Shown one piece after another: positions 8,267 to 51,434 of a DNA stretch of 64,000 bases. This stretch comes from Alphaproteobacteria bacterium. GTDB taxonomy: Bacteria; Pseudomonadota; Alphaproteobacteria; UBA8366; Aestuariispiraceae. The DNA is taken from NCBI GenBank assembly GCA_030065235.1, contig JASJDC010000003.1:248001-312000 (forward strand), written 5' to 3'. The notes below the pieces were generated by a model. The model worked only from the letters and a program-made list of their open reading frames with translations, ran no database searches and was not told where the DNA came from. The position numbers were made by a program, and so were the translations under genes. Position 1 is the stretch's first letter; the number at the start of each line of letters is the position of its first letter.

Positions 8267-10459
8267 CTACAGGTTAGCGCGCCAGCGCTTCAATAACAGT
8301 GAATTCGTCACCACGCTGACGCTGGACAGCGCCATCGCCGCCCCGGCCAAAGCCGGAGTCAGGTACCCGAAAGCGGCGAGCGGGATGCAGATTACGTTGT
8401 AGATGAAGGCCCAGAACAGGTTTTGCCGCACCTTGGCCATGGTCGCTTTCGAGACCGCGATGGCGGCGGGAACCAGCCGCAGATCGCTGCGCATCAGTGT
8501 GACGCCCGCGGTCTCCATCGCGACATCGCTGCCGGTTCCCATGGCGATCCCGACATCGGCCTCGGCCAGGGCCGGCGCGTCATTGACGCCGTCGCCGACC
8601 ATCGCCACGACCTTCTCGCCGTCCGGGCCGGACTGTCGCAACGCTGCGATCTTGGCGCTCTTGCCGCCGGGCGAGACGGGCGCGATACAGGCGTCGACGC
8701 CGACTTGGGCGGCGGCGGTTCGCGCGGTCTTGGCGGCGTCGCCGCTGAGCAGGACCGTTTCGACGCCGGATTTCCTGAGCTTGTGGACCGCCGCGCCGGC
8801 GCTGTCGCGAATCCCGTCGGCGATCGCGAAGGCGGCCAAGAGCCGCCCGTCGGCCGCGCACAGAACGGCCGTAAAACCCTCGGATTCCAGCGCGTCCAAA
8901 ACGGCCGCCGCCATGTCTGTTTCGACGTTGCGTTCCGACACGAATTGTCTGTTGCCCAGCAGGATGTCAGCGGCCTCGACACGCGCCGCGACGCCGCGCC
9001 CAGGGTAGGCGGTGAAGTCGGAGACCGGCGCCAAGGCTATGCCGGCCTCTTCCGCTCGGGCCAGAAACGCGCGTGCAATCGGATGCTCGCTGCCGACCTG
9101 GGCGCTGGCGGCGATTCGCAATGCATGGGCGGCCGCGCCCTCGAACGGGTGGACTTCAGCGAGGTACAGGCGGCCTTCGGTCAGAGTGCCGGTCTTATCG
9201 AACACGACGGTCTCAACCCGGCCCGCCTGTTCCAGAGCTTGCGCGTCTCGAATCAGGATACCCGCGCGCGCCGCGACCCCGGTCCCCGCCACAATCGCCG
9301 TCGGTGTCGCCAAGCCAAGCGCGCAGGGGCAGGCGATTACAAGGACCGAAATCGCCGCCACCAGGGCCGTCTCGAATTCGGCGCCCGCTACCATCCAGCC
9401 GATCAGCGTTACCGCAGCGATCATCACCACCGCCGGCACAAAGACGGCGCTGATCTGGTCGACCAGGCGCTGGACCGGCGCCTTACCAGATTGCGCGTTT
9501 TCGACCAGCCGGATGATCCGGCCGAGGGTCGAGTCGGCGCCGACGGCGGTCGCCCGATATTGAATAAAGCCGGTTCCGTTGATCGCGCCGGCGAGGATCG
9601 GGTCGCCGCGCTTTTTCGCGATGGGCAAGCTTTCGCCCGTGACCAGCGCCTCATCGAATTCGGTCTCGCCGTCTTCCACGACACCGTCGACCGGCGCCCG
9701 CTCGCCCGGCCGAATCAGCACGCTGTCGCCCGGGACCACGGACTCGGCGGCGACGGTGACCTCGGCCCCATCCTTCAGGATTTGCGCCGTGTCAGGGCGC
9801 AGCCGCATGAGCGCGCGAATGGCCGAAGCGGCGCCGCGTTTCGCCCGCGTCTCCAGCGCCTTGCCCGCCAGGACCAGGGTGATGATCACGGCCGACGCTT
9901 CGAAATAAAGATGTCCCGCCGCACTCTCCGGCGTCAGGATCAGGATCGCCAGACTGTAGAAAAAGGCCGCCGACGTGCCCATCGCGACCAGCACGTCCAT
10001 ATTGGCCGCCCCTGTCCGCAACGCCTTGGCCGCGCCGATATAGAAACGCGCGCCGATGACCAACTGGATCGGGGCCGCCAAGAGAAGTTCGACATAGGGC
10101 GGCATATGCAAGCCCAAGCCGGCGGCCATGGCGGCCATTTGCAGCATGAAGGGCGCAGTCAGCGCCGCCGCCGCGATCAGCCAGACCCGATCGCGCCGAT
10201 CCAGCGACGCCTCTGCGTCATCAAGATCGGTTTCCGGCGTCAACGGCGTGTAGCCGGCCTCGGCAATGGCGGCGGACAAGGCGGCCCGATCGCTCGCACC
10301 CCTTGCGACCGTCACATCGGCCCGATCCACGGCGAAATTCACTGTGGCGGAGAGGACGCCGGGCGTCGCCAGCAGCGCTTTCTCGACCCGGCCGGCGCAA
10401 TTGGCGCAGGTCATGCCTTGCACGGGAATGCGGATCGTTTGCGTCAGACGATTGGACAT
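8267..10459 (-). CDS. copA: Cu(I)-exporting P1B-type ATPase CopA
   Basis: This 730-aa ATPase pumps Cu(I) out of the cytoplasm. It has one N-terminal heavy-metal domain with GMTCANCAGRVEKAL at residues 15-29, eight expected membrane helices, and the actuator motif TGESLPIAKK. The membrane metal site is IACPCALGLATPT, the phosphorylation loop VVFDKTGTLTEG, and the nucleotide-domain HP motif GSEHPIARAF. The hinge is GDGVNDAPALAEADVGIAMG. All key residues are present. It is transcribed away from a CueR-type regulator, with a matching operator between them. The predicted transcription start falls on or next to the ATG, so the mRNA may lack a leader. Confidence 0.95.
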   Translation of the reverse strand: MSNRLTQTIRIPVQGMTCANCAGRVEKALLATPGVLSATVNFAVDRADVTVARGASDRAALSAAIAEAGYTPLTPETDLDDAEASLDRRDRVWLIAAAALTAPFMLQMAAMAAGLGLHMPPYVELLLAAPIQLVIGARFYIGAAKALRTGAANMDVLVAMGTSAAFFYSLAILILTPESAAGHLYFEASAVIITLVLAGKALETRAKRGAASAIRALMRLRPDTAQILKDGAEVTVAAESVVPGDSVLIRPGERAPVDGVVEDGETEFDEALVTGESLPIAKKRGDPILAGAINGTGFIQYRATAVGADSTLGRIIRLVENAQSGKAPVQRLVDQISAVFVPAVVMIAAVTLIGWMVAGAEFETALVAAISVLVIACPCALGLATPTAIVAGTGVAARAGILIRDAQALEQAGRVETVVFDKTGTLTEGRLYLAEVHPFEGAAAHALRIAASAQVGSEHPIARAFLARAEEAGIALAPVSDFTAYPGRGVAARVEAADILLGNRQFVSERNVETDMAAAVLDALESEGFTAVLCAADGRLLAAFAIADGIRDSAGAAVHKLRKSGVETVLLSGDAAKTARTAAAQVGVDACIAPVSPGGKSAKIAALRQSGPDGEKVVAMVGDGVNDAPALAEADVGIAMGTGSDVAMETAGVTLMRSDLRLVPAAIAVSKATMAKVRQNLFWAFIYNVICIPLAAFGYLTPALAGAAMALSSVSVVTNSLLLKRWRANL

Positions 10460-10465
10460 CCTACA

Positions 10466-10496
10466 TCTATGGCGCTTCCAGTTACTGGAAGGTCAA
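10466..10496 (-). promoter_or_regulatory. CueR-type copA promoter and operator
   Basis: Read on the minus strand, a -35 TTGACC (10491-10496) and a weak -10 CATAGA (10466-10471) are separated by exactly 19 bp, the stretched spacing typical of MerR-family promoters. The 17-bp sequence CTTCCAGTTACTGGAAG (10475-10491) is a perfect inverted repeat centred on one base and resembles known CueR boxes. The copA ATG is at 10459, so transcription would begin at or within a base or two of it. The divergent regulator gene starts 30 bp to the right. Confidence 0.82.
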
Positions 10497-10525
10497 GCAG
10501 AGATCGGCGAATTGGGAGAGGATGC

Positions 10526-10915
10526 GTGAATATCGGAGAAGTCGCGGAGCGCAGCCATTTGCCGGCGAAAACGATCCGCTATTACGAAGAAATCGGCCTG
10601 ATCAAGCCGCCGCGCGACGAAAACGGCTATCGCCGGTTCCGTGAAGAAGACGCGCATAGTCTGCGGTTTCTCGCCCGCGCCCGGTCGCTGGGATTCTCGA
10701 TCGAGGATTGTCGGGCGCTTTTGTCGCTCTATCACGATCGCGGGCGGGCCAGCGCCGATGTAAGGCGGATCGCGCAGGAGCATCTGACCCGGATCGAGGC
10801 CAAGATCGGGGCGCTGCAATCGATGCAGACGACCCTGCGGCATCTGGTCGAGACCTGTCATGGCGACAACCGGCCCGGCTGCCCGATCCTGGACGATTTG
10901 GCGGGGTTGGAGTGA
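10526..10915 (+). CDS. cueR: CueR-type copper-responsive MerR regulator
   Basis: This 129-aa MerR-family activator senses Cu(I) and switches on copA. It starts at GTG 10526, preceded by GGGAGAGG at a suitable distance. The N-terminal winged helix-turn-helix reads NIGEVAERSHLPAKTIRYYE, followed by a coiled-coil dimerisation helix. The C-terminal metal loop CHGDNRPGCPIL has two Cys eight residues apart, the pattern of monovalent-metal (Cu/Ag/Au) sensors. The gene is divergent from copA with its box between them. Its TGA overlaps the ATG of the next gene (TGATG), suggesting coupled translation with a c-type cytochrome. Confidence 0.93.
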   Translation: MNIGEVAERSHLPAKTIRYYEEIGLIKPPRDENGYRRFREEDAHSLRFLARARSLGFSIEDCRALLSLYHDRGRASADVRRIAQEHLTRIEAKIGALQSMQTTLRHLVETCHGDNRPGCPILDDLAGLE

Positions 10916-11421
10916 TGCGCCGGCGTCTGTCGTTGGGCCTTGCGGTTGTTGCAGTCCTGGCGCCCTTGGCGATGGCTTGGGCGCATGGCGTCGCCACCGG
11001 GATCGTCAAGGAACGGATGGATTTCATGGTCACGGTCGGCAAGGCGATGGAGGGCATGGCGAAGATGTTGCGTGGCCGTGTCGACTACAATCCAGAGGTG
11101 ATGCGGATGCATGCGGCGACGCTCGCCAGCCATGGGGGCGAGCGGCTGACCGTACTGTTTCCACAAGGCACGCTCGATCCCCCGACTGAGGCGCTGCCGG
11201 CGATCTGGGACGATTGGTCCGAATTCCAGGTCCAGGCGGCGCGCATGAAGGTGGCGGCGGAGGCGATGCGGACCGCCGCTGACAATCCGCGCTCGACAGC
11301 AACCAGCGCGGATCTCGGGCTCGACGCGGCGGGTCTGGCCGCCGCCTCGCCGGATATCGTGTTTCGCAATCTGGCTGCGACCTGTCAGGCCTGCCACGAC
11401 AAGTTCCGCAAGGAACAGTGA
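10915..11421 (+). CDS. Class II cytochrome c (cytochrome c'-like), exported
   Basis: This 168-aa protein has an N-terminal Sec signal (RRRLSLGLAVVAVLAPLAMAWA, about 22 residues) and one haem-binding CQACH motif near the C-terminus. A C-terminal CxxCH preceded by a four-helix body is the layout of the cytochrome c' / c556 family. It should be a periplasmic haem protein. Family members bind NO or act as electron carriers. Its start overlaps the stop of the CueR gene, tying it to copper control. Whether it helps with copper or oxidative stress is inference. It ends 28 bp before a convergent small gene. Confidence 0.87.
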   Translation: MRRRLSLGLAVVAVLAPLAMAWAHGVATGIVKERMDFMVTVGKAMEGMAKMLRGRVDYNPEVMRMHAATLASHGGERLTVLFPQGTLDPPTEALPAIWDDWSEFQVQAARMKVAAEAMRTAADNPRSTATSADLGLDAAGLAAASPDIVFRNLAATCQACHDKFRKEQ

Positions 11422-11449
11422 CCGCTCACCAGGAGGATGGCGCGGGCGG

Positions 11450-11743
11450 TCAGTCCAGCGTCTCGACGGCGATCGCGTTCGTGTCGGCGATTTCCGTGCG
11501 AAGGGCCAAGGCCTCGGCATAGATTTCCGATGAATGCCACGCCTTGAGCCGCTCCATCGACGGGAATTCCAGCACAACCAGCCGGTTTGGCGTCCAATCG
11601 CCTTCCATGACCGATACATCGCCGCCGCGCACCCGGTAGCGTCCGCCGTATTTCTCGATCGTCGGCGGGGTCATCGCCTGATACAGCTTGAACCGGTCGG
11701 GGTCCCGGATCTCGGTGATGTTAACGATGAACAGGGCGGCCAT
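11450..11743 (-). CDS. DUF1330 domain protein
   Basis: This small cytoplasmic protein of 97 aa begins MAALFIVNITEIRDPDRFKLY. It has the ferredoxin-like DUF1330 pattern, including a KYGGRYRVRGGDVSVMEGDW segment and FPSMERLKAWHSSEIY. The fold resembles dimeric alpha/beta-barrel (EthD/monooxygenase-like) proteins, but no reaction is known for the family. The start was set at 11743 because the upstream extension of the frame has no family similarity. It is divergent from the PLP-enzyme gene to its right. A second DUF1330 gene lies at 54609-54893. Confidence 0.85.
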   Translation of the reverse strand: MAALFIVNITEIRDPDRFKLYQAMTPPTIEKYGGRYRVRGGDVSVMEGDWTPNRLVVLEFPSMERLKAWHSSEIYAEALALRTEIADTNAIAVETLD

Positions 11744-11868
11744 GACGGGTTCCTCTGTTGGCTGGACGATGCGCGTCGCCGGCGTAGCGTAGCGGCAATT
11801 GACGTCGCCGCGCCAGGGGCTACGATCCCGCCGGGCTGCGGCCAAAGGCGGCGTCAGGCGGAGTGCGC

Positions 11869-13029
11869 ATGAAAGATTTGTCCAAATCCAATCTGGGTCT
11901 GTCGCCGGACACGCTGGCGGCGCAAGGGCTCGGCTGGGAGGATGCGGAGACCGGCGCGGTGATTCCGCCGGTTCATCTATCCACCACCTTTGCGCGTGAC
12001 GACCAATATCAATTGCCGACGCATCGGGTCTATGCGCGCGACGGCGCCGCGTCTCTGGATCAGGCCGAGGCCATGATCTCCGCGTTCGAGCAAGCCCAGG
12101 AGGCGATGGTTTTCGCCTCAGGCCTCGCCGCCTGCATGGCGCCGTTCCACGCGCTGCAGCCGGGCGACCGGGTGGTGGCGCAGAGCGGCATCTATTTCGG
12201 GGTGCCGACCTGGCTGGATGAATTCGGCGATGCGCAAGGGCTCGAGGTCGTCTTCGTTCCCGGCGGCGACGAGCCTGCGCTATTGGCGGCGATCGCAGCG
12301 GCCGCGACCGCGCTGGTTTGGATCGAGAATCCGTCCAACCCGCTGATGGATGTAACCGACATCACCGCCGTCGCCGAGGCGACCCATCGGGCGGGCGGCG
12401 TGCTGTGCGTCGATTCGACGACCGCGACGCCGGTTCACTGCCAGCCGCTGACCCTCGGCGCCGATATCGTCGTGCATTCCGCGACCAAATATCTGAACGG
12501 CCATTCCGACCTTCTGGCCGGCGCGCTGGCCACGCGTGTTCAGACCGATTTTTGGGAGCGCATTCGCCGCCATCGCTATCTGACCGGTCCGCTATCGGGC
12601 GGATTCGATCTGCATCTTTTGGTGCGCGGCATGCGGACGCTCTATCTGCGGGTCGAACGGCAGTCGGCCAATGCGCTGGCCATCGCTGAGTTCCTCGAGG
12701 CGCATCCGAAAGTCGCGCGTGTGCGCTATCCAGGCCTGCCGAGCCATCCGCGCCATGCGCTGGCCGCCAGACAGATGCAAAGGGGTTTCGGCGGGTTGCT
12801 GAGTTTCCACCCCAAGGGCGGCCGCGATGGCGCGCTTGCGGCGGCCAACGCGCTGCAGGTCATTATCCGCGCCACCTCGCTGGGCGGCGTTGAATCGCTG
12901 GTTGAGCATCGCCATTCGGTGGAGCCGCCGGGCTCGGGCGTGCCGGATGATCTCTTGCGCCTGTCGGTCGGGATCGAGTCAGCCGAGGATCTGATCGCCG
13001 ACCTGGACCGGGCGCTGGCGCAGTTGTAG
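11869..13029 (+). CDS. Cys/Met-metabolism PLP-dependent enzyme (trans-sulfuration family)
   Basis: This 386-aa fold-type I PLP enzyme belongs to the cystathionine gamma-synthase/beta-lyase family. Visible features are PVHLSTTFARDD near the N-terminus, the cofactor-phosphate region VFASGLAACMAPF, VWIENPSNPLMDVTDI, the Asp of LCVDSTTATP and the PLP lysine in VVHSATKYLNGHSD. The C-terminus has ATSLGGVESLVEHR, typical of the family. ATG 11869 is favoured over GTG 11863 because the AGGCGGAG ribosome site lies at the right distance. Which reaction it performs (beta-lyase, gamma-lyase or gamma-synthase) cannot be told. The neighbouring GST could fit sulfur or thiol metabolism, but this is weak context. 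Confidence 0.88.
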   Translation: MKDLSKSNLGLSPDTLAAQGLGWEDAETGAVIPPVHLSTTFARDDQYQLPTHRVYARDGAASLDQAEAMISAFEQAQEAMVFASGLAACMAPFHALQPGDRVVAQSGIYFGVPTWLDEFGDAQGLEVVFVPGGDEPALLAAIAAAATALVWIENPSNPLMDVTDITAVAEATHRAGGVLCVDSTTATPVHCQPLTLGADIVVHSATKYLNGHSDLLAGALATRVQTDFWERIRRHRYLTGPLSGGFDLHLLVRGMRTLYLRVERQSANALAIAEFLEAHPKVARVRYPGLPSHPRHALAARQMQRGFGGLLSFHPKGGRDGALAAANALQVIIRATSLGGVESLVEHRHSVEPPGSGVPDDLLRLSVGIESAEDLIADLDRALAQL

Positions 13030-13067
13030 CGAACCGCCATTATGGCGACGAATGAGAAGGCTTAACA

Positions 13068-13706
13068 ATGAGCATCGATCTATACACTTGGGGAACGCCG
13101 AACGGGCGCAAGGTTTCCATCGCTCTGGAGGAGATGGGGCTCGATTACACCTGTCATCCGATTGACATCATGAAGGACGACCAGTTCGACCCTGCCTTCC
13201 TGAAGATCAGCCCGAACAACAAGATCCCCGCCATTGTCGACCATGACACGGGCCAGACGCTGATGGAGACGGGCGCCATCCTGCTCTATCTCGCCGAGAA
13301 GACCGGCCAGTTTATTCCCGCCGACAAACCGGGCTATTGGCGTTGCGTCGAATGGCTGATGTGGCAGATGGGCGGCTTAGGGCCGATGCTGGGACAGGCG
13401 CATCATTTCGTCAGGTTCAACCCCGATGTCTCGGAATACGCGACCAACCGCTACGCGACCGAGGCCAAGCGCCTGTACGGCGTTCTTGACCGCCGGCTGT
13501 CGGAAACCAGCGCGTTTATCGCCGGCGCCGACTACACGATCGCCGACATGGCCGCCTGGCCTTGGATCAGCCGGTTTGAATGGCAGGGCGTCGATCTGAA
13601 CGCCTATCCGGCGGTGAAGCGCTGGTATCTGGAGATCTCGGCGCGGCCGGCGGTTCAGCGCGGCTATGACAAGCCGCACTATGTCAGCGATATTCCCGTA
13701 CCGTAA
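13068..13706 (+). CDS. Glutathione S-transferase family protein (YfcG/YghU-like)
   Basis: This 212-aa protein has a thioredoxin-like N-terminal domain starting MSIDLYTWGTPNGRKVSIAL. It contains the conserved ISPNNKIPAIVDHD (cis-Pro) and ETGAILLYLAEK glutathione-binding segments. An all-helical C-terminal domain follows, with FIAGADYTIADMAAWPW and a conserved N-capping-box Asp. The TPNGRKVSIAL start is typical of the nu-class disulfide-bond reductases YfcG and YghU. It follows the PLP enzyme by 38 bp on the same strand and is probably co-transcribed. A related GST lies at 18460-19161. Confidence 0.92.
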   Translation: MSIDLYTWGTPNGRKVSIALEEMGLDYTCHPIDIMKDDQFDPAFLKISPNNKIPAIVDHDTGQTLMETGAILLYLAEKTGQFIPADKPGYWRCVEWLMWQMGGLGPMLGQAHHFVRFNPDVSEYATNRYATEAKRLYGVLDRRLSETSAFIAGADYTIADMAAWPWISRFEWQGVDLNAYPAVKRWYLEISARPAVQRGYDKPHYVSDIPVP

Positions 13707-46163: not shown

Positions 46164-47045
46164 TCATTGCCCTTTGAATTGGTCGACAAGCCAGACTTTT
46201 GTCGCCTCAATCGCGGTTGTTGGCGCCATGCCTTTGGGATGCACAAACCAATAGGCGAAACTGGCTGGGATCGAGACTGCGAAAGGCGCCACCAGCCGGC
46301 CTGTCGCAATGTCATCTACGACAAGAATCGACCGGCCCAGCGCGACCCCCTGACCATCGACGGCCGCCTGAAGGATCGCGGCGTCATCCCCCAGTCGAGG
46401 CCCTGCAGGAGGAGTCGAACGGCGCCCGGCGGCCTTGAACCAAGCGGCCCAGTCTTCGGGAATGTCCCCACATAAAAGGGTCGCCCGATCTAAATCCTTT
46501 GGCGTCTTTAAATTAAGCTCTTCAGCGTACTGGGCCGAGCAGACGGGCGTCACCGTCTCGCCGCCAAGCTTAGTCGCTTCCAGATCGGGCGGAGGCGCGG
46601 GGCTGTAGCGGATCGCCGCGTGAACAGCTTCCGAAGCAAAATCCACCAAATGTCGGGATGCGGTGATACGAAGATCGATATCAGGGTTTTTGGCGAGGTA
46701 GTCGCCCAATCGCGGTGCAAACCAACGCGCCGCCACCGACGGAAGCATTGAAAGGGTTACAAATCGATCGGATCGCCGCGCGTCCGTGACAGCGGACCTA
46801 ATGTTAGCAAAGGCCGTCGCCAATTGGCGCGCCAAGCGTTCGCCTGACGGCGTCACAGTCAGTCTGGCGCCATTGCGCACGAACAAATTAACACCCAGCG
46901 TCGCCTCGAGATCGGAGACCTGTCGAGACACGCCGCTTTGTGTGATGCCAAGCTCTTCTCCAGCGGCGGTGAATCCGCCGCATCGGGCGGCGGCCTCAAA
47001 TACCTGAAGCGATCTCAATGGCGGTTTAGCATGAGTGATACGCAT
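46164..47045 (-). CDS. LysR-family regulator (GcvA-like)
   Basis: This 293-aa LysR regulator has the winged helix-turn-helix FEAAARCGGFTAAGEELGITQ (about residues 17-37), a linker helix and an effector-binding domain. The IPASFAYWFVHPKG end is typical of the GcvA-like branch that often acts on amino-acid or transport genes. It is divergent from a GntP-like permease 50 bp away. Both starts lie inside near-identical 16-bp repeats. The regulator most likely controls the permease and its downstream acetyltransferase. The co-inducer is unknown. Confidence 0.92.
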   Translation of the reverse strand: MRITHAKPPLRSLQVFEAAARCGGFTAAGEELGITQSGVSRQVSDLEATLGVNLFVRNGARLTVTPSGERLARQLATAFANIRSAVTDARRSDRFVTLSMLPSVAARWFAPRLGDYLAKNPDIDLRITASRHLVDFASEAVHAAIRYSPAPPPDLEATKLGGETVTPVCSAQYAEELNLKTPKDLDRATLLCGDIPEDWAAWFKAAGRRSTPPAGPRLGDDAAILQAAVDGQGVALGRSILVVDDIATGRLVAPFAVSIPASFAYWFVHPKGMAPTTAIEATKVWLVDQFKGQ

Positions 47046-48906: not shown

Positions 48907-49929
48907 TCATTCAAAGATATTTCGCGAGGCTCGCGCAAAGCGCGTCTCCCGCTTCCGGATCGACGTCAAGATGCGTGACGATCCGGATGCGCCGTTCTCC
49001 GAAAGCCCCGATCTGAACGCCGTGGGCTTGAGAGCCGTCGCCAAACTCTCGGCGTCCGGCGCTTCCGGCGAGACGTCAAGAATGACGATATTCGTCTCGA
49101 CGGGCAGTACGGCGATGACGGACTCGAGAGCCGATATTTGAGAAGCGATGGACGACGCTAAATCGTGATCCTCGGTAGGCCGGTCAATATTGTGCTCAAG
49201 GGCGTAGAGACACATGGAGGCGACAATGCCCGATTGCCGCATGGCGCCGCCGATCTGCTGTTTGATGCGCCAGGCCCGTTCGATAAAATCGACGGAGCCC
49301 GCGAGCACGGCGCCGATCGGCGCGCCCAGGCCTTTTGTGAAATCGATCCAGCATGAATCGTATCGTTCGGCCCAGGTCGCGGCGGGCACGCCCGATCGAA
49401 CGACGGCGTTCATCAGGCGCGCGCCGTCCATATGGGTCGCGAGGCCGGCGTTCTTTGCAACCTCGGCGACGGCTTGGATCTTTTGCAAAGGCCAAACCGC
49501 GCCGCCGCCCGAGTTGGCTGTCTGTTCAACGCACAGCAATCGGCTTTCCGGCATATAGCGGGAGCGCGGGCGAATGGCCTGAGCGACCTGATCTGTTTCA
49601 AAGATCCCATGCTTTCCCTCGATGGCGTGGATCATAACGCCGCTGATTGCGGCCGGCCCGCCGGTCTCGTAGTTGATGATACGACTGCTGCGTTCGCAGA
49701 TGACCTCATCACCGGGCCGCGTATGCACCCGTATCGCGATCTCGTTGCACATGGCGCCGGATGGAAGAAATAGGGCGGCGTCCTTGCCGAGCAGCGAAGC
49801 GACACGGTCGCACAGGTCAAGCGCGGTCGGGTCTTCGTCTTTCTGCTCATCGCCCACGACAGCACGCAGCGACGCGTCGCGCATCGCCATGGACGGCTTG
49901 GTCTTCATGTCGGAGTAGAAATCGTACAT
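48907..49929 (-). CDS. ltaE: Low-specificity L-threonine aldolase-like enzyme, frameshifted near the 3' end
   Basis: This PLP enzyme cleaves L-threonine or L-allo-threonine to glycine and acetaldehyde. Residues 1-301 are normal, with YDFYSDMKTKPSMAMRDA, FLPSGAMCNEIAI, HMDGARLMNAVV and the PLP-lysine in WIDFTKGLGAPIGAVLAGS. After residue 301 (49027-49029) the frame reads an atypical Ser/Arg-rich tail. The next frame reads HGVQIGAFGERR, then RIVTHLDVDPEAGDALCASL, then AKYL and a stop at 48911-48913. This looks like a 1-nt loss (ctcaaagcc to ctcaagcc). The intact product would be about 340 aa. It could be a real mutation or an assembly error. Confidence 0.85.
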   Translation of the reverse strand: MYDFYSDMKTKPSMAMRDASLRAVVGDEQKDEDPTALDLCDRVASLLGKDAALFLPSGAMCNEIAIRVHTRPGDEVICERSSRIINYETGGPAAISGVMIHAIEGKHGIFETDQVAQAIRPRSRYMPESRLLCVEQTANSGGGAVWPLQKIQAVAEVAKNAGLATHMDGARLMNAVVRSGVPAATWAERYDSCWIDFTKGLGAPIGAVLAGSVDFIERAWRIKQQIGGAMRQSGIVASMCLYALEHNIDRPTEDHDLASSIASQISALESVIAVLPVETNIVILDVSPEAPDAESLATALKPTAFRSGLSENGASGSSRILTSIRKRETRFARASRNIFE

Positions 49930-50223: not shown

Positions 50224-50496
50224 GTGAGATCCCTGCCAAAGACGGTTTCGGCCTACAAGCGGACGCCCGACTTTACCGAGGCGACCGTGCCCGCGGGTTT
50301 GACCAAAGACCATAGTACGAAAGCCGGAGTCTGGGCTGTGATCAGCGTTTTGTCCGGTCGGTTGCGGCTTGAAATCTCGAGCGAAGACACCGACGTCGAC
50401 CTCGCTCCGGACCAGCCCGGCGTCGTCGCGCCCGAGGCGGCGCATCGCGTCACGCCGCTTGGGCCTGTTCGGTTCTACGTCACATTCTACCGCTAG
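50224..50496 (+). CDS. DUF1971 domain protein
   Basis: This 90-aa cupin-like protein begins with GTG and includes VSAYKRTPDFTEATVPAGL, HSTKAGVWAVISVLSGRLRLE and PEAAHRVTPLGPVRFYVTFYR. That is the DUF1971 pattern also found in the N-terminal part of some tellurite-resistance TehB-type proteins. No methyltransferase domain is present here. Its 3' end overlaps the convergent LysR gene by 4 bp. Function is unknown. Confidence 0.87.
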   Translation: MRSLPKTVSAYKRTPDFTEATVPAGLTKDHSTKAGVWAVISVLSGRLRLEISSEDTDVDLAPDQPGVVAPEAAHRVTPLGPVRFYVTFYR

Positions 50497-51401
50497 GCGT
50501 TGTCGGTCCGCGCCTCTTCGAGCAGCCAGTCGCGGAAGGCGGCGACCTTGGGCGTATCGGCGCCTTCCTTTGCAGTCAGCAAGTAATAAGCGAACGCAAA
50601 GGGCGTGCTGAGGGCGGGGTCGAAGGGACGCACCAGACGACCCGCAGCGATGTGATGCGTCGTTAGTTTGTCGCCGACCAAGGCGACGCCATGGCCGTCG
50701 AGCGCGGCTTGCATCGCCATGGTCTCCATCGAGAAACGCGGTCCCCGGGTCGGATCGATATTGGTCAGGCCGGCGGCCAGCAGCCACATCCGCCAAGACG
50801 CGTCGGCCTGTTGCCATTCGACATGCAACAACGTATGATAGCGTAGGTCATCGGGCTCGCGCAATGGGCGCTCGCCGTGAAGAAGAGCAGGGCTGCAGAC
50901 CGGTGTGAAGGCGTCGCTGAACAACCGATCGACCCGGACCCCCTCATAGCCGCCCCGACCGTAACGCAGCGCGATATCGGCGTCGCCGCGCGCCACATCG
51001 ACCAGCCGGTCGGTGCCGTCGATCCGGACCTCGATATCCGGATGCTTTGTGCGGAACCGGTCAAGGCGGGGTACAAGCCAAGAAGCGCCGAAGGAGGGTG
51101 AGACGCTGATCGTCAACACCCCGCCGTCGGCATGGGCGCGCATCCGCTCGACGCCTTGGCTGAGCATATCAAAGCCTTCGCCGAGCAACGGCAGGGCCGC
51201 TTGGCCGGTGTCGGTCAGGCGCAGCGCCCTTGTCAGGCGGCGGAACAAGCGGACCTGAAGCAAATCCTCTAGCGCCTTGACCTGATGGCTCACCGCCGCC
51301 GGCGTGACATTCAACTCGGCCGCCGCCTTGGTGAAGCTAAGATGCCGCGCGGCGGCTTCGAAGGCCTTCAGGGCGTTCAGGGGCGGTAGAGGTCTCGACA
51401 T
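50493..51401 (-). CDS. LysR-family regulator (GcvA-like)
   Basis: This 302-aa regulator has the helix-turn-helix AARHLSFTKAAAELNVTPAAVSHQ near residues 17-40, the LLQVRLFRRLTRALRLTDTG stretch and an effector-binding domain. The GPRFSMETMAMQAALDGHGVAL region is typical of the GcvA branch. ATG 51401 was chosen over the adjacent TTG 51404. It is divergent from a small DUF1127-type gene. A 13-bp palindrome lies 34 bp upstream of its start and may be its binding site. Confidence 0.93.
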   Translation of the reverse strand: MSRPLPPLNALKAFEAAARHLSFTKAAAELNVTPAAVSHQVKALEDLLQVRLFRRLTRALRLTDTGQAALPLLGEGFDMLSQGVERMRAHADGGVLTISVSPSFGASWLVPRLDRFRTKHPDIEVRIDGTDRLVDVARGDADIALRYGRGGYEGVRVDRLFSDAFTPVCSPALLHGERPLREPDDLRYHTLLHVEWQQADASWRMWLLAAGLTNIDPTRGPRFSMETMAMQAALDGHGVALVGDKLTTHHIAAGRLVRPFDPALSTPFAFAYYLLTAKEGADTPKVAAFRDWLLEEARTDNA

Positions 51402-51434
51402 CAACTATAACTACAATTTTTCTAACTCATCTGT

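Follow-up and report, generated by a model that had tools for sequence, protein, structure and literature searches.

Does the open reading frame (ORF) at window positions 48907-49929, which by its length and family looks like an ordinary threonine aldolase gene, encode the complete enzyme, or has its 3′ end been moved out of frame? The window is the whole stretch of 64,000 nucleotides that was analysed; the ORF lies on its minus strand, encodes 340 aa and ends with the stop codon 48909-48907. According to the initial annotation, the product is a normal threonine aldolase up to residue 301, which agrees with the matches of the ORF to Pfam PF01212 (298.4 bits, cut-off 27, residues 3-286) and to NCBIfam NF041359, the GntG family PLP-dependent aldolase (287 bits, cut-off 230). 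The name GntG derives from an enzyme of the guanitoxin pathway. The NF041359 match joins residues 3-304 of the ORF to positions 7-310 of the 343 in the profile, and the intact relative L010 was aligned as far as position 340. In tblastn, the body of the ORF is 58-75% identical to its 24 closest loci, values that for L032, L049, L050 and L052 cover only part of the body, in the best segment, and the closest solved structures are L-allo-threonine aldolases (best 1jg8, 7.5e-72). The name "threonine aldolase" holds at the family level and fails at the equivalog level: with PRK10534 (low-specificity L-threonine aldolase) the ORF scores 217.6 bits, below the cut-off of 312, and L010 likewise stays under it with 243.3 bits, so the substrate can be assigned at the family level only. 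Residues 1-301 are those of a normal member of the L-allo-threonine and low-specificity L-threonine aldolases (1jg8, 3wgc, 4lnj; PF01212; NF041359), but in contrast to these enzymes the ORF has its C-terminal motif with the carboxylate-binding Arg in another frame. Two ORFs that look by eye like LysR-type regulators, at window positions 46164-47045 and 50493-51404, flank the aldolase region.

A frame-by-frame table shows where the product leaves its family. In the annotated frame, resemblance to aldolases extends to about Lys301 and is followed by PTAFRSGLSENGASGSSRILTSIRKRETRFARASRNIFE up to the stop 48909-48907. The neighbouring frame, one base upstream, reads AHGVQIGAFGERRIRIVTHLDVDPEAGDALCASLAKYL and ends at the stop codon 48913-48911, which lies 4 bp away from the annotated one. 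The locus divides into the following parts:

49027..49929, minus strand: in-frame aldolase body, residues 1-301 (PF01212, NF041359, identity to the 24 closest loci)
49025..49031, minus strand: junction, where homology passes from the annotated frame to its neighbour, with a net deficit of one base against relatives (frame table against the continuous frame of relatives)
48911..49027, minus strand: family C-terminus in the displaced frame, with RIVTHLDVD among its 38 codons, and its stop (23 of 24 in-frame matches, 13 of 13 invariant columns, pN/pS)
48907..49026, minus strand: annotated Ser/Arg-rich tail plus stop, out of the family frame (matches in relatives out of frame, 2 of 13 invariant columns)

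The sequence places the junction within a range of about 49031-49025 rather than at a single base. Open alternative frames are common in this genome (228 of the 514 examined across the final 36 codons of 257 long ORFs in 464 kb), so that an open neighbouring frame says little on its own and homology is decisive.

Hence three queries, the body (residues 1-300) and each of the two tails, displaced and annotated, were run separately in tblastn against 52 loci, and the frames were re-checked by script. The 24 closest loci are those with at least 58% body identity (L010-L018, L032 and L039-L052), among which L040, L041, L043 and L044 were taken as duplicates of L013-L016, their contigs being equal in length to those of the latter. 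The displaced tail matches 23 of these 24 with 54-81% identity (E 6.5e-9 to 4e-16), each time in frame with the last body segment of the locus, which for L049 and L050, whose bodies have frame changes of their own, is the segment after the change; the remaining locus, L032, ends at residue 262, before the tail, and falls outside the tail count. The annotated tail also finds matches near the same place in 19 of the 23 loci, with E <0.01 in six (L016, L017, L039, L044, L050 and L052), and every one of them is out of the frame of the gene. Weaker matches to the displaced tail occur in the distant loci L019-L031 and L033-L038 (E >0.01 in L030, L031 and L038), and none was found by tblastn in the paralogue L001. 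As the normal C-terminus of a relative, the Ser/Arg-rich tail is absent from all 43 C-termini visible among the 44 translated loci (L001 and L010-L052); L025, L049 and L051 stop early through lesions of their own and had their C-termini viewed separately, and L032 is cut by the contig end. When the L010 protein was searched at the order level, in 43 genomes (E up to 1e-70), 37 rows were obtained, in which the window gene ends at query residue 304 and the other 36 reach at least residue 325, one of these being the source of the query itself and many being paralogues at about 50% identity. At the level of sequence comparison, it is confirmed that the last 39 residues of the annotated product are Ser/Arg-rich and foreign to the family and that the neighbouring frame holds the family C-terminus. 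All of this bears out the earlier description of a Ser/Arg-rich tail after 49027 next to a frame that continues the family to its stop at 48911-48913, and of a net loss of one base, as the frame of the relatives runs on unbroken through the junction. With a downstream frame that continues the family and a shift not common to the examined relatives, the locus shows the pattern of a recently frameshifted gene (pseudogene), and the frameshift interpretation of the initial annotation is supported. One of the close relatives, L048 (3816-4832, 68% identical), comes from a record titled Acidimicrobiales bacterium, and the other close relatives of the window gene mostly stand in records titled Proteobacteria; a transfer or a mis-binned contig is possible.

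The same relatives allow one to ask in which frame selection has acted. Thirteen tail columns are invariant in 18 relatives (the 24 closest loci minus the four duplicates, L032, and L018, the tail of which is the most divergent); the displaced frame retains all 13 of them, a strong family match, and the annotated tail 2. Against 14 chosen relatives, the displaced codons give pN of 0.11-0.35 and pS of 0.56-0.87, with differences mostly at third positions, and the body gives pN of 0.14-0.29 and pS of 0.60-0.73. In per-codon log-odds of codon usage, the annotated tail (0.068) falls below both the displaced tail (0.273) and the body (0.225). Conservation is at about the same level in the displaced codons and in the body, and the lesion is therefore either fresh or an artefact. 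These values also bear on the idea that the ancestral C-terminus was replaced by a functional Ser/Arg-rich tail, an idea that would suit the near-normal length of the ORF and nothing else that we found. The tail is common to no examined relative, has weak codon usage, keeps 2 of the 13 invariant columns and lacks both the conserved Arg and the RxVTHLDV motif, and the old frame is undecayed, so we consider such a replacement highly improbable.

A conserved, open downstream frame in the -1 direction formally fits programmed -1 ribosomal frameshifting as well, by which the two frames would be joined into a normal enzyme. An X XXY YYZ heptamer is absent at the junction, and there is no homopolymer of 4 or more either. 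The sole in-frame heptamer of the gene, GGGAAAG at 49618, lies about 590 bases upstream and cannot serve, because a stop of the displaced frame at 49078-49076 lies between it and the junction. The shift is moreover common to none of the examined relatives, and with neither a usable slippery heptamer nor a conserved shift, programmed frameshifting is very unlikely indeed.

The frameshift in the deposited sequence is best read either as a mutation or as an error, and we lean slightly towards a real, recent mutation over an assembly or sequencing error. According to the favoured reading, a gene of the threonine-aldolase family that was once normal would have lost a single base near codon 301, in a recent and lineage-private event, and with it the frame of its last 38 codons. 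Translation would then run into a nonsense Ser/Arg-rich tail and stop by chance 4 bp later, so that the length of the ORF would conceal the damage. In the competing reading, to which we give a substantial but somewhat lower probability, the gene of the organism is intact and the deposited sequence is one base short. An error would yield exactly what is seen in the displaced tail, which is about as constrained as the body, shows no extra decay and carries no second lesion at the invariant columns. The comparison included one draft genome of the genus, in 19 contigs, an error fits equally well on most points, and the lesions in family members from other draft assemblies (L025, L049, L050 and L051) may partly be errors too. 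The position of the junction speaks against an error, however, since it lies outside any long homopolymer, the only run of 4 or more within 48907-49100 being CCCC at 49006, and so do codon-usage scans of 464 kb, which revealed no other demonstrable frameshifted gene, albeit with limited sensitivity.

These scans covered the window and 20 stretches of 20 kb, together 464 kb of the 4.18 Mb genome. Among 472 coding segments, a codon-usage frame HMM returned 104 frame changes on the same strand, 90 of which were set aside solely on a start codon at most 40 bases from the preceding stop, the usual arrangement of adjacent genes. Of the remaining 14, which were listed, five pairs were scanned with Pfam; in three of the five the members match different families, and in one, L055, the downstream member has no Pfam family. 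The fifth pair consists of two photolyase-type frames, the upstream one covering FAD_binding_7 almost whole, and was taken as two genes. In L058, overlapping frames at 10104-11726 and 11374-13137 both carry FAD_binding_7 and apparently belong to neighbouring photolyase/cryptochrome-type genes, and L072 (8984-9570) holds a ParD/ParE-type toxin-antitoxin pair (Pfam) in overlapping open frames. The HMM did not flag the aldolase and therefore does not see short tails. A further scan took in the final 36 codons of each of the 257 long ORFs and found a better alternative frame in 11, the window aldolase included. The main ORFs of seven of the 10 other candidates have no Pfam family, which fits shadow ORFs; this check left out window 30863, L057 and L058. 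The alternative frames of L054, L062 and L073 were scanned as well, and all three have a Pfam family. In the 464-kb sample, displacement of the frame could be demonstrated for no other gene, a weak control given the partial Pfam checks and an HMM blind to short tails.

What the annotated product would lack can be seen from one displaced codon:

48983..48985, minus strand: codon of the displaced frame encoding the conserved Arg in the R(I/V/L)VTH motif, which corresponds to Aeromonas jandaei Arg313 (L010-3wgc alignment, numbering check)

The structure 3wgc, the own label of which is only L-allo-threonine aldolase, we take to be the A. jandaei enzyme. In the alignment of L010 with 3wgc, the RVVTH Arg of L010 falls on chain residue 316. 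The His of HIYRYE is residue 88 of the chain and was taken as His85, with the Tyr four residues on as Tyr89; the resulting offset of 3 makes chain residue 316 Arg313. In published work on the A. jandaei enzyme, His85 and Tyr89 are named (PMC6411801), and Arg313 is described as conserved and as stabilising or binding the substrate carboxylate (PMC6411801, PMC4761611). The annotated frame encodes Gly at the equivalent codon, and the C-terminal Arg of the family is missing from it. Judging from its sequence, the annotated product is probably inactive, because the carboxylate-binding Arg sits in the displaced frame; a protein without the C-terminal segment and this Arg would most likely be inactive or unstable.

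The genome does contain another threonine aldolase. The second strong PF01212 gene, L001 (G000:C1:326414), encodes a full-length protein of 384 aa with a VRLVLHLDIS tail at its end, exceeds the cut-offs of both NF041359 and PRK10534 (416.1 bits vs. 312 for the latter) and shares about 40% identity with the window protein. There is also one gene for SHMT. Loss of the window enzyme may be tolerated because the second family member and SHMT remain, although tolerance through L001 is uncertain, since two proteins only about 40% identical may differ in substrate.

Damaged copies are found in four of 39 non-duplicate loci (L010-L052 less the four duplicates, with L032 and L052 visible only in part), each with a different lesion:

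L050, 784-1800: frame change near residue 120
L049, 5001-6012: frame change near residue 241
L051, 5001-6020: in-frame TAG at residue 87
L025, 1495-2600: in-frame TGA near residue 124

All four damaged copies stand in draft assemblies, which for L049-L051 are metagenome assemblies. Among the rows of the order-level genome search (E up to 1e-70) no further copy is damaged, and the one TGA flagged there, in G030, turned out to be the end stop of an ORF seen complete. That this aldolase subfamily, with otherwise well-conserved copies, has been lost repeatedly and independently in the window genome and the four relatives seems to us improbable; if true, repeated loss would point to an enzyme that is dispensable or conditionally selected in these bacteria. 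Three passages in the bacterial literature that name the enzyme (a presence/absence row, a gene list and its lack in Lactobacillus ruminis) describe no frameshifted threonine aldolase copy.

With its net loss of one base, its intact remainder and a full-length paralogue in the genome, the locus resembles other frameshifted genes and recent pseudogenes of bacteria. It is an ordinary single-gene frameshift, real or artefactual, and in itself a frameshifted aldolase tells nothing new on biology. Its difference from the usual frameshifted gene or pseudogene is that the two stops, 48913-48911 and 48909-48907, lie within 4 bp, so that checks based on length miss it; the initial annotation had rightly noted that the damage is hidden from annotation in this way. 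The finding is a caution for annotation: where the stops of two frames lie 4 bp apart, a frameshift leaves ORF length and family naming unaffected, and an inactive or mis-sequenced enzyme would pass for a functional aldolase, with the risk of misleading metabolic models.
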